Assembly (NCBI GenBank): GCA_945891385.1 | Contig: CAMDDJ010000013.1 | Coordinates: 1-64,000, forward strand | DNA: 64,000 nt | From: Candidatus Kuenenia stuttgartensis | GTDB taxonomy: Bacteria > Planctomycetota > Planctomycetia > Pirellulales > UBA1268 | Reading direction: 5' to 3' | In this document: piece after piece, positions 20,470 to 49,732 of the stretch | Layout: the number at the start of each line of letters is the position of its first letter | How positions within the stretch are numbered: the stretch's first letter is position 1 | Notes under the pieces: generated by a model | Database searches by the model: none | Told to the model about the DNA's origin: nothing | What the model saw: the letters and a program-made list of their open reading frames with translations, nothing else | Program-made: the position numbers and the translations under genes

Positions 20470-23251
20470 GCCGACCCAGAGACACGACCCACTTGGCCAC
20501 TTCGATCACCGTCACGGGCACCAGCGCCAGGCCGATCACCAGCAGCCAGTCGCGGCCGAGCTGCGAGCCGACCTCGAAGACGTCCTGGGCATAGGGCAGC
20601 GTGACGACGGTCACTTGCAGCAGGGCCGACAGGGCGACGGCAGCCAGCAGCCAGGGATTGGAGAAGAAGCCCAGGTCGATCGCGGTTCGTCGGTCGCTGC
20701 GGCAGCCGATCGCAAAGAAGAGCTGACTAAAAGCCGCCACGCAAAACGTGACCGTGCGGGCGTGGGGCAGGCGGGCGGGATCGCCGCCCCAGGTCCAGCG
20801 GAAGGCCACGATCGCGACCGCCGCCACGATCACCCCGTGGACCAGAATCAGCCCGCCCCGGGCCCAATCGATCACCGGGGCTCGTGGCGACCGCGGCGAC
20901 CGCTCCATGATGTCGGCCTCGGGAGACTCGAGCCCCAGCGCCAGGGCTGGCAGCCCATCGGTCACGAGGTTCAGCCAGAGGATCTGGATCGCCGCCAGCG
21001 GCGCCGGCCAGCCGGCCAGCGCCGCCACGAACATCACGAGCACCTCGCCGGCGTTGCACGAGAGCAGGTAGTGGATGAACTTCTGGATGTTGTCGTAGAT
21101 GCCCCGTCCCTCCTCGACCGCGGCCACGATCGAGGTGAAGTTGTCGTCGGTGAGCACCATGTCGGACGCTTCCTTCGTGACGTCGGTACCGGTGATCCCC
21201 ATCGCGATCCCGATATCGGCCGCCCGCACGGCTGGGGCGTCGTTGACCCCGTCACCCGTCATCGCCACCACGGCGCCGTCGGCCTGCCAGGCCTTGACCA
21301 CCCGGAGCTTGTGCTCCGCTGATACCCGCGCGTAGACGGCCACATGGGGCACGAGCGCGGCGAGCGCTGCCTCGTCGAGCTGCTCGAGCTCCGCGCCGGT
21401 CACGGCCCGACCGCCCGCCTCGACCATCCCCAGTTCGCGGCCGATCGCCAGGGCCGTGGCCGGATGGTCACCTGTGATCATCACGGGCCGGATGCCGGCG
21501 GAGCGGCAGGTTTCGACGGCCCGCCTCACCTCCTCTCGCGGCGGATCGATCATCCCCACGAGGCCCACGTGCACGAGATTCCGCTCCACCGAATCAGCGG
21601 CCTGCTCCACCGACTCGCCCTCCCCGAGCGGACGGCAGGCGAGTGACAGAACCCGCAGCGCCCGATCGGCAAGCGCCTCCGCCGTGGCCATGATCTCGTG
21701 CCGCCGCTCCTCGGAGAGCGGCACGTCGCGGCCGTTCCACCGCTCGGCGACGCAACCCGGCAGCACCGCCTCGGTGGCTCCCTTCGTTTCGAGTACCCGG
21801 CTGCCGTCGGTCAGCCGCACCACCACGCTCATCCGCTTGCGGTCGGAATCAAACGGAATCTCGAACACGACCGGCTCGGCAGGCTCAGTCCGCGACACAC
21901 CCCCCTTGAGCGCCGCGACCACGAGCGCCCCCTCGGTAGGATCGCCCACCACCTGCCAGCCGCCGCCTTCTTCGCCCGGCCGGACCTCGGCGTTGTTGCA
22001 CCGGGCCGCGATCTGGAGCAGCCGCCGAAGGTCGGGCTCGTCGGCGGGCCGCGCCACGGTCACTTTCGCCGCGCCTCCCGCCGCCTCCTCGGGCCGAAAC
22101 TGCCCCTGGGGCGCATAGCCGACCCCGGTCACGTGCCAGCTTCCGGCCGCGGTCACGATCTCGCGCACGGTCATCTCGTTGCGAGTGAGCGTGCCGGTCT
22201 TGTCGGAGCAGATCACGGTCACGCTCCCGAGGGTCTCCACGCTTGGCAGCCGACGGACCAGCGCGTTGCGGCCGACCATCCGCTGCAGCCCGATCGCCAG
22301 CACGACCGTGACCACCGCAGGCAGCCCTTCGGGCACCGCGGCGACGGCCAGGCTCACCGCCCGCAGGAGCACCTCGCCAAACTTGCCGCCAGCCCACATC
22401 GCGGCCAGCCCTCCACCCCGCCAGACCTCGAGCGCGAAGATCACGCCCACGACCGCCAGGCAGACCACGATCAACACCCGGCCGAGTTCCGCCAGCCGCC
22501 GTTGGAGCGGTGTCGTTTCAGGTCCTGTCGTCTCGAGCAGGCTGGCGATCCGCCCGAGTTCGGTCGCCATGCCAGTTGCCACCACGACCGCTGTCGCATG
22601 GCCGGCCGCCACCACCGTTCCGGCGTGGACCATCGTGCGGCGGTCGCCGATCGCCGCGCCCGCCGCGGCCTCGCCCGAGGCCTGCTTCTCCACCGGCACG
22701 CTCTCACCCGTGAGGGCCGACTCCTGCACCTTGAGCGAAAACGATTCGAGTAGCCTGGCATCAGCGGGCACGGCATCGCCAGCCTCCAGCTCCAGCCGGT
22801 CGCCCGGAACCACCTCCCGCGCCGGAATCGCCCGGGCCTCTCCGTCCCGGATCACCTTCGCCAAGGGAGCCGCCATCTGCTGGAGCGCCGCGAGGGCCGC
22901 CTGGGCCCGCTCCTCCTGGAGGAAGCCGATGATCGCGTTGACGAGCACGATCGCCACGATCGCCGCCGTGTCGGCCCAGTCGCCCATCGCCCCGGCGATC
23001 ACGGCCGCCGCAATCAGGATCCAGATCACGAGCTCCTGAAACTGCCGCAGCAGCTTCCACCACCAGCCCTCGGCTGGCCGCTCCCGCAGAATGTTGTCGC
23101 CATGTTCCCGCCGCCGCCGCTCCGCCTCGAGGACGGAGAGCCCCCGATCGGCGTCGCTGCCCAGGCGTTCGACCACCGCCTCGGCCGCCAGCGTGTGCCA
23201 CGGGGGCTGCGTCGGCTCGGCGGCGGCGGTTGGTGGAGAGACGGTGTTCAC
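20447..23251 (-). CDS. P-type calcium-translocating ATPase
   Basis: 'VICSDKTGTLTRNEMTV' phosphorylation motif, 'MTGDGVNDAPAVRAADIGIAMG', 'TGESVPVEK', 10-TM architecture. Confidence 0.95.
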   Translation of the reverse strand: MNTVSPPTAAAEPTQPPWHTLAAEAVVERLGSDADRGLSVLEAERRRREHGDNILRERPAEGWWWKLLRQFQELVIWILIAAAVIAGAMGDWADTAAIVAIVLVNAIIGFLQEERAQAALAALQQMAAPLAKVIRDGEARAIPAREVVPGDRLELEAGDAVPADARLLESFSLKVQESALTGESVPVEKQASGEAAAGAAIGDRRTMVHAGTVVAAGHATAVVVATGMATELGRIASLLETTGPETTPLQRRLAELGRVLIVVCLAVVGVIFALEVWRGGGLAAMWAGGKFGEVLLRAVSLAVAAVPEGLPAVVTVVLAIGLQRMVGRNALVRRLPSVETLGSVTVICSDKTGTLTRNEMTVREIVTAAGSWHVTGVGYAPQGQFRPEEAAGGAAKVTVARPADEPDLRRLLQIAARCNNAEVRPGEEGGGWQVVGDPTEGALVVAALKGGVSRTEPAEPVVFEIPFDSDRKRMSVVVRLTDGSRVLETKGATEAVLPGCVAERWNGRDVPLSEERRHEIMATAEALADRALRVLSLACRPLGEGESVEQAADSVERNLVHVGLVGMIDPPREEVRRAVETCRSAGIRPVMITGDHPATALAIGRELGMVEAGGRAVTGAELEQLDEAALAALVPHVAVYARVSAEHKLRVVKAWQADGAVVAMTGDGVNDAPAVRAADIGIAMGITGTDVTKEASDMVLTDDNFTSIVAAVEEGRGIYDNIQKFIHYLLSCNAGEVLVMFVAALAGWPAPLAAIQILWLNLVTDGLPALALGLESPEADIMERSPRSPRAPVIDWARGGLILVHGVIVAAVAIVAFRWTWGGDPARLPHARTVTFCVAAFSQLFFAIGCRSDRRTAIDLGFFSNPWLLAAVALSALLQVTVVTLPYAQDVFEVGSQLGRDWLLVIGLALVPVTVIEVAKWVVSLGRLSASRRP

Positions 23252-24276
23252 GAGAGCCGATAGACCATCACCAGGCCGCCGATCACGACGAGAAACACGA
23301 GCAACGCGTCGGGTTCGACGACGGGAATCCGCTTCTCCTCATGATACAGCTGCCCCAGCACGGCGATCGCCGTGGCCACGATCACGGCCAGGGCGGTCAC
23401 GGCATGCACCGGCGACACCGCCGCGAACAGCGGCCCGGCATGAAGAAAGTCGAGCGGCACGAACATGATCATGTTGAAGGCGTTGCTGCCGAAGGTGTTG
23501 CCGATGGCCAGATCGAAGGCACCCATCCGCACCGCCGCGATCGAGGCCACGAGTTCCGGCAGCGAGGTGGTGACGGCCACGAGCGTCGTGCCGACGAAGG
23601 TCCGCCCCCAGCCCGACTCGGTCGCCAGCCGGTCGGCCACATGCGCGAGCCTGGGCCCCGTCACGAGCAGCACGACCGCCGCTGCCAGAAACACCGCGAT
23701 CGGCAGCACGAGGCCCGGCCGCTTTCCCGTCGCGGCCGGGGGCCCGGGCTCTCGGGGCGTGGATGCCTCGGCCTCGACGGCAGCCCGCACCGAGATTCGC
23801 TGGTCGATGAACAGCATCCGGGCCCCGAGCATCCAGGCCACCAGAATCGCCCAGGACCAGCCCCCCACCCCCAGCACCGTCAGCGGCGGCAGTTTCCCCG
23901 CCGTAAGCACGGCCGTCGCGACGAGCGCCGTCAGGGCGATCGAGAGCGTGGCCGAGAGCGCGTGGGAGGCGGCCTCCCGGGACAGCATCCGCCGGCCCGA
24001 CCGCTGAGCCAGATCGACGCCCGCCAAGATCAAGAGGTTCATCAGGCTCGAGCCGAGCAGGTCGCCGGCGGCCAGGTCGGGCATGCCTCCGCGGACTGCG
24101 GCGATATCAACCGAAAGCTCCGGTAAGGAGGTCGCCGCCGCCAGCAGGACACTGCCCACAAACAGCCGTCCCAGGCCCGTTGCCTCGGCGATCCGATCGG
24201 ACGATCGGGCCAGGAACGTACCGGCCGTCGCCACCGCAGCAGCCAGGGCGACGAACTGGATGACTAGCCAGGGCAT
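23248..24276 (-). CDS. Sodium/calcium exchanger family protein
   Basis: Two alpha-repeats: 'AATSLPELSVDIAAVRGGMPDLAAGDLLGSSLMNLL' and 'VTTSLPELVASIAAVRMGAFDLAIGNTFGSNAFNM'. Confidence 0.92.
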   Translation of the reverse strand: MPWLVIQFVALAAAVATAGTFLARSSDRIAEATGLGRLFVGSVLLAAATSLPELSVDIAAVRGGMPDLAAGDLLGSSLMNLLILAGVDLAQRSGRRMLSREAASHALSATLSIALTALVATAVLTAGKLPPLTVLGVGGWSWAILVAWMLGARMLFIDQRISVRAAVEAEASTPREPGPPAATGKRPGLVLPIAVFLAAAVVLLVTGPRLAHVADRLATESGWGRTFVGTTLVAVTTSLPELVASIAAVRMGAFDLAIGNTFGSNAFNMIMFVPLDFLHAGPLFAAVSPVHAVTALAVIVATAIAVLGQLYHEEKRIPVVEPDALLVFLVVIGGLVMVYRLS

Positions 24277-24366
24277 CAGAATCCCTCGGGGGCTCCCACA
24301 GGTTTTCTAAGCCCGTCGCGCCTGCATGGCAAACGGAACATGGAAGCCAAGAACATGAGCGCGGGA

Positions 24367-24445
24367 GGCTCGGGGGTCGGCGAACGCTCGCGGAGCAATT
24401 GGGGCGTATCCTCGCCCGCGACGCGACTTTTGCCGCCCCCGAGCC
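24367..24445. repeat. Family A 79-bp repeat with inverted ends, copy 1
   Basis: GGCTCGGGGGTCGGC...GCCGCCCCCGAGCC ends; near-identical to 24568-24646. Confidence 0.88.
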
Positions 24446-24463
24446 GGTGCAGCTTGCTGTCCC

Positions 24464-24554
24464 GTGGACAAAGCCTTCCATGGCCTTTGTCCACTCCGGC
24501 GACCGCAGGAAACGCCAAGGGTTTCCTGGGTCGCCAGTCGCCGCTTCCTGCGGC
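24464..24554. repeat. Cluster of three hairpins between two family A copies
   Basis: GTGGACAAAG/CTTTGTCCAC (24464-24494); GGCGACC-gc-AGGAAAC/GTTTCCT-gg-GGTCGCC (24498-24535); GCCGC/GCGGC (24540-24554). Confidence 0.75.
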
Positions 24555-24567
24555 TTATAAAGCGGGA

Positions 24568-24646
24568 GGCTCGGGGGTCGGCGAACGCTCGCGGAGCAAT
24601 CGGGGCGTATCCTCGCCCGCGACGCGACTTTTGCCGCCCCCGAGCC
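24568..24646. repeat. Family A 79-bp repeat, copy 2 (direct orientation)
   Basis: Same sequence as 24367-24445 apart from about one base (attgggg/atcgggg). Confidence 0.88.
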
Positions 24647-24671
24647 GGTGCAATACATCCCCCGATTCGCG

Positions 24672-25466
24672 TCAGCCGATCTGGCGGCGCATCGTGACGA
24701 GCGAGTCAGCCGCGTCGCGGACACCCCGGCGGCTCATCGGCTTGGCGAGCACGAGCCCGGCGATGAAGCCGGCCACGTGGGCCGAGTAGGCCACGCCCCC
24801 TCCGCCCCCACCACTTGAATCGAAGAAGCCGCTGATCACCTGAAACAGAAACCAGATCCCGACGGCCACGTAGCCCGGCACGTCGATCATCATCCGGACC
24901 GCGAGCACGGTCACCCGCCGGTTGGGATGGAGCACGAGATAGGCCCCGAGCACACCCGAGATCGCTCCACTGGCGCCAAGGCAGGGCGTGAGCGCCGACT
25001 CTCCCGAGGCATTCAAGGCCACGAAGGCCAGCGAGGCGATCACGCCGCAGGCGATGTAGAAGAGCAGGTAGGAGAAGTGGCCCATGTCGTCCTCGACGTT
25101 GTCGCCGAAGATCCAGAGAAACCACATGTTGCCCAGGAGGTGCATCACGCTGCCGTGCATGAAGATCGCCGTGAGGAGCGTGAGCCAGACCGGGATCGGG
25201 GTCTCTCGCAGCCCGGGCACCGGCACCTGCACGAGGCCATTGGGCGTGGGCACCGCCCGCACCTCGTCCTCCGTCACGACGTCCTTGCCCGAGATGATCT
25301 CGGCCGGAACCTGCACGTAGGCCATCGTGAAGTTCTCGTCGATGCCCTGCGGGTTGAACCCCTTTTGGAGCACGGCGAAGACGAACACATTGGCCACGAT
25401 CAAGAGGATCGTGACCAGGGGAAAGGTCGCGCGATCGGAGTTGTCGTCGCCAATCGGAAAAACCAT
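24672..25466 (-). CDS. Rhomboid-family intramembrane serine protease
   Basis: 'HGSVMHLLGNMWFLWIFGDNVED', 'CLGASGAISGVLGAYLVLHP' (GxSG), 'HVAGFIAGLVLA'. Confidence 0.95.
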   Translation of the reverse strand: MVFPIGDDNSDRATFPLVTILLIVANVFVFAVLQKGFNPQGIDENFTMAYVQVPAEIISGKDVVTEDEVRAVPTPNGLVQVPVPGLRETPIPVWLTLLTAIFMHGSVMHLLGNMWFLWIFGDNVEDDMGHFSYLLFYIACGVIASLAFVALNASGESALTPCLGASGAISGVLGAYLVLHPNRRVTVLAVRMMIDVPGYVAVGIWFLFQVISGFFDSSGGGGGGVAYSAHVAGFIAGLVLAKPMSRRGVRDAADSLVTMRRQIG

Positions 25467-28871: not shown

Positions 28872-28974
28872 GGATGAATCCCCCCGGGAATCGTTGATTC
28901 GAGGGCGAGATCATACCACCGCAGGGCCCGGCTGGGCACCGACCCCCGCAGCTCGTCGTCAAACCTGGCGCATC

Positions 28975-29293
28975 GGCTCGGGGGCGGCAAAAGTCTCGTC
29001 GCGGGCGAGGATACGCCCTTATGCTCCGCGAGCGTTCGCCGACCCCCTCGCCTCAGGTCTGCTCTGCTGCTTCGGCTCGGGGGCGGCAAAAGTCTCGTCG
29101 CGGGCGAGGATACGCCCTTATGCTCCTCGAGCGTTCGCCGACCCCCTCGCCTCAGGTCTACTCCGCTGCTCCGGCTCGGGGACGGCAAAAGTCTCGTCGC
29201 GGGCGAGGATACGCCCTTGTGCTCCTCGAGCGTTCGCCGACCCCCTCGCCTCAGGTCTGCTCTGCTGCTTCGGCTCGGGGACGGCAAAAGTCG
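28975..29293. repeat. Tandem array of family A repeat (three 99-bp units plus a partial fourth)
   Basis: 'GGCTCGGGG[GA]CGGCAAAAGTC' begins at 28975, 29074, 29173 and 29272, exactly 99 bp apart. Confidence 0.9.
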
Positions 29294-49514: not shown

Positions 49515-49606
49515 CGACAGGCCCGGCCGAGGTGCCCGGAGGTTCGCAGATCGCCCGCTGCCAGACCAGAGCGGCTTTGACCAGCTCGGGGCAACGCTTT
49601 CGCACC

Positions 49607-49732
49607 GGCTCGGGTGCGGCAAAAGTCGCGTCGCGGGCGAGGATACGCCCCACTTGCTCCGCGAGCGTTCGCCGACCCCCTCGCACTGGCTTCCTGGCTC
49701 GGGGGCGGCAAAAGTCGCGTCAGGGGCGAGGC
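49607..49732. repeat. Family A repeat: one full and one partial unit
   Basis: GGCTCGGGTGCGGCAAAAGTCGCGTCGCGGGCGAGGATACGCCCC...GCCGACCCCCTCGC, then GGCTCGGGGGCGGCAAAAGTCGCGTCAGGGGCGAGG at 49696. Confidence 0.85.

Follow-up and report, generated by a model that had tools for sequence, protein, structure and literature searches.

A family-specific hairpin repeat as the likely central module of an IS630-type MITE often found at stop codons

What is the repeated, hairpin-rich DNA that separates a rhomboid-family gene from a sodium/calcium exchanger gene in the window, the 64,000-nucleotide stretch analyzed here, and what kind of element could have placed it there? The first-pass annotation of this gap described two near-identical 79-bp direct repeats flanking three hairpins and read them as noncoding, either a mobile unit of the REP/MITE kind or a structured RNA. 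We followed the repeat through the window genome (G000; 3.77 Mb in 150 contigs, an assembly that is ~94% complete and broken at repeats), through the other genomes of its family and order, and into the elements that carry it elsewhere.

Results

The two direct copies, which lie between the stop of the rhomboid gene and the start of the exchanger gene, are real, and they extend to 91 bp with a single mismatch (99% identity); both genes lie on the minus strand (Table 1). Each 91-bp copy forms one long hairpin (-61.6 kcal/mol, z = -5.4), and the entire region reaches z = -10.4. The end sequences quoted for the 79-bp repeats were exact; what they mark, however, are the arms of an internal hairpin and not the ends of a mobile unit, whose real ends lie further out in sister species and have mostly decayed at the window loci. 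Likewise, hairpins do lie between the two copies, but they are part of a separate dispersed repeat, which we call B, and every 79-bp repeat forms a long hairpin of its own. The locus at 24361-24652 is an A-B-A composite, with two hairpin cores (A) joined by repeat B, and such composites recur (L006, L007, L008, and L011). Repeat B is found at 19 places in this genome (the window copy and 18 others) and folds into further hairpins; because its free-standing copies end in the inverted sequences TGGAAAAAGCC...GGCAGGCTTTTTCCA, it looks like a second MITE. Neither an intrinsic terminator nor a sigma-70-like promoter was found in 24250-24720. The recurrences noted at 29 kb and 49.6 kb were also borne out: at 28971-29293 three full A units stand in tandem beside a fragment, and 49603-49732 holds one full and one partial unit.

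Table 1. Positions of hairpin cores, repeat B and neighboring features in the window
Feature	Position	Strand	Basis or remark
Sodium/calcium exchanger gene, neighbor	23248..24276	-	context
Hairpin core A, copy 1	24366..24448	+	covariance-model bounds; repeated stretch 24361-24451
Repeat B, second dispersed hairpin repeat, MITE-like	24450..24549	+	links the two A units
Hairpin core A, copy 2	24567..24649	+	covariance model; repeated stretch 24562-24652
Probable decayed right MITE end	24650..24674	+	assigned at this site from distance to core
Rhomboid-family gene, neighbor	24672..25466	-	context
Hairpin core A, tandem unit	28972..29053	-	covariance model
Hairpin core A, tandem unit	29071..29152	-	covariance model
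Hairpin core A, tandem unit	29170..29251	-	covariance model
Fourth-core fragment	29271..29293	-	right arm only
Hairpin core A, single full unit	49604..49686	-	covariance model
Partial core	49695..49732	-	right arm

Copies were sought genome-wide and in relatives, and they were found in quantity. A DNA search of the window genome scored 55 matches from 231 candidates, and the covariance model recovers at least 62 copies. Contiguous sequence totaling 244 kb contains 13 matches, 12 of which are nearly full length; this extrapolates to ~185 copies (95% interval 96-324), an estimate biased upward by its inclusion of the window itself. Outside the window, six copies in 180 kb correspond to ~125 per genome; the total is perhaps 100-300. 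Among the 74 genomes of the family, 64 give covariance-model matches, representing 11 of its 12 genera; ~124 genomes from elsewhere in the order gave none, and a plasmid search gave no match. The hairpin is one family's own repeat, present in dozens to hundreds of copies. In one genome of the set (G018, contig C12, 83700-84563), four cores stand at an exact 261-bp period.

To characterize the fold, we aligned 38 distinct sequences to the model, and 90.5% of cells in this alignment are paired. Both-side changes occur in 14 of 29 pairs, where shuffles give a mean of 3.4 (0/500 reach 14) and slid controls give 1-4; the alignment is fitted to the model, and these counts therefore lean somewhat toward the fold. 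Compensatory changes include GGGCG/CGCCC to GGGCC/GGCCC at the hairpin tip and, in genus g8, the whole replacement of the outer stem with pairing kept; some such changes are likewise present among copies of the window genome, partly as subfamily inheritance. The fold can be assigned to one strand because G.U pairs far outnumber A.C (46 vs 1) and G.A far outnumber T.C (91 vs 5). Three tandem G.A motifs lie in the hairpin, and Watson-Crick pairs can take the place of two of them: the first, G.A/A.G, is invariant (38/38); the second is GA/GA in 22 sequences, GC/GC in 11, and mixed in only 5; the third belongs to the outer stem, with TC/GA as its alternative. The inner sequence is near-invariant. 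Rfam yielded no match above the gathering score and nothing credible at a relaxed threshold. The hairpin appears to be under selection on one folded strand, and it would most likely act as a putative RNA in read-through 3' ends. Insertions show no clear orientation bias relative to genes, and an RNA role accordingly gains no support from that quarter.

An indication of how the core travels comes from sister species, in which it sits at the center of a near-identical 160-bp element, TAGAGCGCATCTCCGCTACGTGTAGCGACGAG...core...CGATACACGTATCTCAGACGCGCTCTA, that has the inverted ends TAGAGCGCAYC and lacks a coding frame. These true ends lie 51 bp and 27 bp outside the hairpin. A transposase with matching ends was likewise found: IS630-family elements of ~1 kb carry such ends in four genomes (G001, G013, G019, and G011, the last cut by a contig end), and the frames of the G013 element match Pfam HTH_Tnp_IS630 and DDE_3. 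IS630 elements duplicate a TA target, preferably within CTAG, and TA borders the G013 elements, in most cases with a C before and a G after (C-TA...TA-G). In its sister-species form the repeat is a MITE of the IS630 family, with shared terminal inverted repeats (TIRs), TA borders favoring CTAG, small size, and no transposase of its own. Four of the IS630 elements (L127-L130) have two reading frames that join at a run of A (GTCAAAAAAAAGT in two elements), the layout expected for frameshifting. We considered and rejected the possibility that the core is part of IS630 itself, since it is absent from 12/12 IS630 loci. In other genera the core has quite different flanks (L189 and L195 in g6; L194 and L196 in g8; L197-L199 in g12); the g6 cores carry GGACCAYCCGCGCGCGGTCT on both sides.

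The ends of the element coincide with the ends of genes. The TAG of the element end is in frame as a stop in 13/13 clearly coding flanks (chance, 1/3 each), a test that assumes independence although several of the flanks belong to a single species. Of 13 elements in 380 kb of G013, 10 lie at a predicted gene stop, vs 4 of the 24 CTAG sites that are outside genes and carry no element (p = 0.0008). A trivial cause, that CTAG sites are mainly stop codons, was rejected, as few CTAG sites without an element end a gene. The convergent gene pair that flanks one G013 insertion could be traced as orthologues across the genus and is element-free in nine species, which align straight through; in G021 the empty site is the bare stop GGCTAG. 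This placement may reflect targeting or the survival of harmless insertions. In the window genome, arrays favor convergent gene pairs (14 of 24 classifiable arrays vs 20 of 127 gene pairs; gene calls come from our own codon-usage heuristic). The window site itself is empty in two relatives (G006 and G020), where the same two genes lie ~10 bp apart vs 395 in the window genome; the stop at this empty orthologue is TGA, not TAG, which gives no support for insertion into a TAG at this particular site.

Most copies and arrays in the window genome have no recognizable TIR, and alignment-based TIR detection there was mostly nonsignificant; end decay is therefore deduced from stop-to-core distances. 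Eight of 22 right-hand neighboring stops fall 24-30 bp from the core, seven of them at 26-27 bp (intact, 27 bp; p = 3e-5), and at the window site the rhomboid stop, TGA on the minus strand, forms the last 3 bases of the probable right end and lies 26 bp from the second core. Right MITE ends survive on contigs C5, C59, and C97, and a left-end box is enriched near cores (9/41 vs 70/2415, p = 4e-6). The stop distances and surviving ends indicate that old MITE insertions are still visible in this genome, the window array included. The clearest old-form copy (C97, 6930-7025) has a diverged core whose right arm contains an insertion, and its MITE right end is intact. Arrays hold 1-3 core units between decayed end modules, although array lengths may be undercounted where contigs end inside the repeat; tandem units share a linker ending GTTGACC, and units are 0.954 identical within arrays vs 0.923 between them. 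Mean core identity is 92%, whereas flank identity drops to background (0.28) within ~10 bp of the core, a disparity for which simple MITE decay is insufficient without conversion or selection. No IS630 transposase (PF13358) was found in the window genome, whose incomplete, repeat-broken assembly leaves loss of the gene unproven.

Discussion

We propose, with fair confidence in the explanation as a whole, that the repeat is the ~83-nt central hairpin module of a family-specific, nonautonomous IS630-type MITE. An IS630 transposase would move the MITE in trans by TA-targeted cut-and-paste; on insertion at a CTAG stop codon, the first bases of the element would regenerate the TAG stop, which would account for the location of copies at gene 3' ends and between convergent genes. 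Within the window lineage, the outer ends would have decayed after movement stopped, while cores may have multiplied inside existing sites by duplication and been homogenized by conversion. The result would be arrays of 1-3 units joined by short linkers or by repeat B, as in the A-B-A composite of the window, with the hairpin fold probably acting as RNA. Several observations weigh against this explanation: the paucity of recognizable TIRs in the window genome, the excess of core over flank identity, the quite different flanks around the same core in other genera, and the TGA at the window site in the empty relatives.

Because conservation is stronger in the core than in the ends, and because the flanks differ between genera, a self-standing core is a serious rival. 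The core might be an independent mobile or replicating module, at the ssDNA or RNA level, that was captured by several MITEs and that in the window genome moves bare, inserts beside existing units, and builds arrays. Its conservation across 11 genera with differing flanks, the fall of flank identity to background within 10 bp, the strand specificity of the fold, and the common linker ending GTTGACC would all fit; on the other hand, a search for a partner enzyme found none, adjacent stops and the right ends that survive put many cores of the window genome inside old MITE insertions, and units within arrays are barely more alike than units between them. We consider such autonomous movement unlikely. 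A related version, which we entertain tentatively, holds that the 83-nt hairpin is an independent functional RNA or ssDNA module that moves between transposon shells, is homogenized within each genome, and is delivered to stop codons by IS630 shells; if so, dozens to hundreds of genes would gain a common folded 3' end. That the repeat is instead a functional structured RNA (3' UTR or small RNA) which selection has dispersed, and for which the MITE link is secondary, seems rather improbable: the 14 compensatory pairs, the strand asymmetry, and the near-invariant inner sequence are what such an RNA would show, but the copies are dispersed and strongly lineage specific, no gene association was found, promoter- and terminator-like sites are absent at 24250-24720, and Rfam holds no match.

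Of the categories first suggested for the repeat, the MITE is supported in part by the TIR-bounded IS630-type element of the sister species and the structured RNA in part by strand-specific covariation, both in noncoding DNA, but REP palindromes moved by a RAYT (Y1) transposase were not supported. High copy number, palindromic structure, and extragenic location at gene 3' ends would all suit a REP or REPIN; nevertheless, the sought RAYT/TnpA_REP partner was not found, PF01797 being absent from five copy-rich genomes (G000, G010, G013, G014, and G017) and the core from all 17 RAYT regions of the family (0/17, some shortened by contig ends), and the sister-species ends are of IS630 type, which makes this origin very doubtful. 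The chance that the repeat is an assembly artefact or a collapsed repeat is close to nil: some contigs do end inside the repeat (L011, L024, and L027), but uniquely flanked copies in dozens of contigs, in 64 genomes, and in dozens of species, together with empty orthologous sites, exclude both assembly error and chance.

Correia-type elements are short IS630-type MITEs whose ends match an IS630-family element and which are bordered by TA. The closest architecture to the hairpin repeat is that of the BOX and RUP elements. In pneumococcus and Streptococcus suis, BOX carries stem-loop modules in tandem, varying in number, between end modules; one central module can occur with more than one kind of end module, and RNA folds are predicted; BOX and RUP, the latter an IS630 MITE, are both enriched between convergent genes (PMC3049150). 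The repeat described here may be similarly modular, with 1-3 central units per array and decayed end modules, and it shares the enrichment between convergent genes and a predicted fold, but its central hairpin of 83 nt has tandem G.A pairs and its sister-species ends are of IS630 type and lie on stop codons; the likeness is one of architecture, and no sequence relation is expected. RUP resembles it as a short nonautonomous element with TA borders and inverted ends matching an IS630-family element (PMC3049150). From both RUP and Correia-type elements it differs in its end sequences, its long conserved internal hairpin, its insertion at TAG stops that are in frame, and the arrays of its internal part. 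REP/BIME sequences associated with RAYT are likewise high-copy extragenic palindromes, in part as composite arrays (PMC2817692, PMC3733652), whereas the present repeat has no RAYT partner, a longer hairpin, IS630-type ends, and a TA target.

An element of this kind is familiar to specialists in bacterial repeats as a MITE, BOX, or RUP; what is unusual is the combination of stop-codon insertion with a G.A-rich covarying hairpin. Three things usually seen apart are joined here, namely a MITE with its matching insertion sequence, an insertion that keeps a TAG stop and spares the coding sequence, and a deeply conserved, strand-specific fold as cargo. Insertion exactly at stop codons lets an element spread without breaking proteins. 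The combination suggests a concrete reason for the clustering of some small repeats at the ends of genes, and it provides a testable example of a folded module reaching many 3' ends across a bacterial family. We found no match in the open literature for IS630 MITEs that insert at stop codons; within the literature searched, such insertion together with a strand-asymmetric, tandem-G.A covarying hairpin looks new. At the stop codon of the gene used in the empty-site test, one further genome (G015, L241) carries TAGGTCGCATTCGA, possibly another element with a similar end at the same place.
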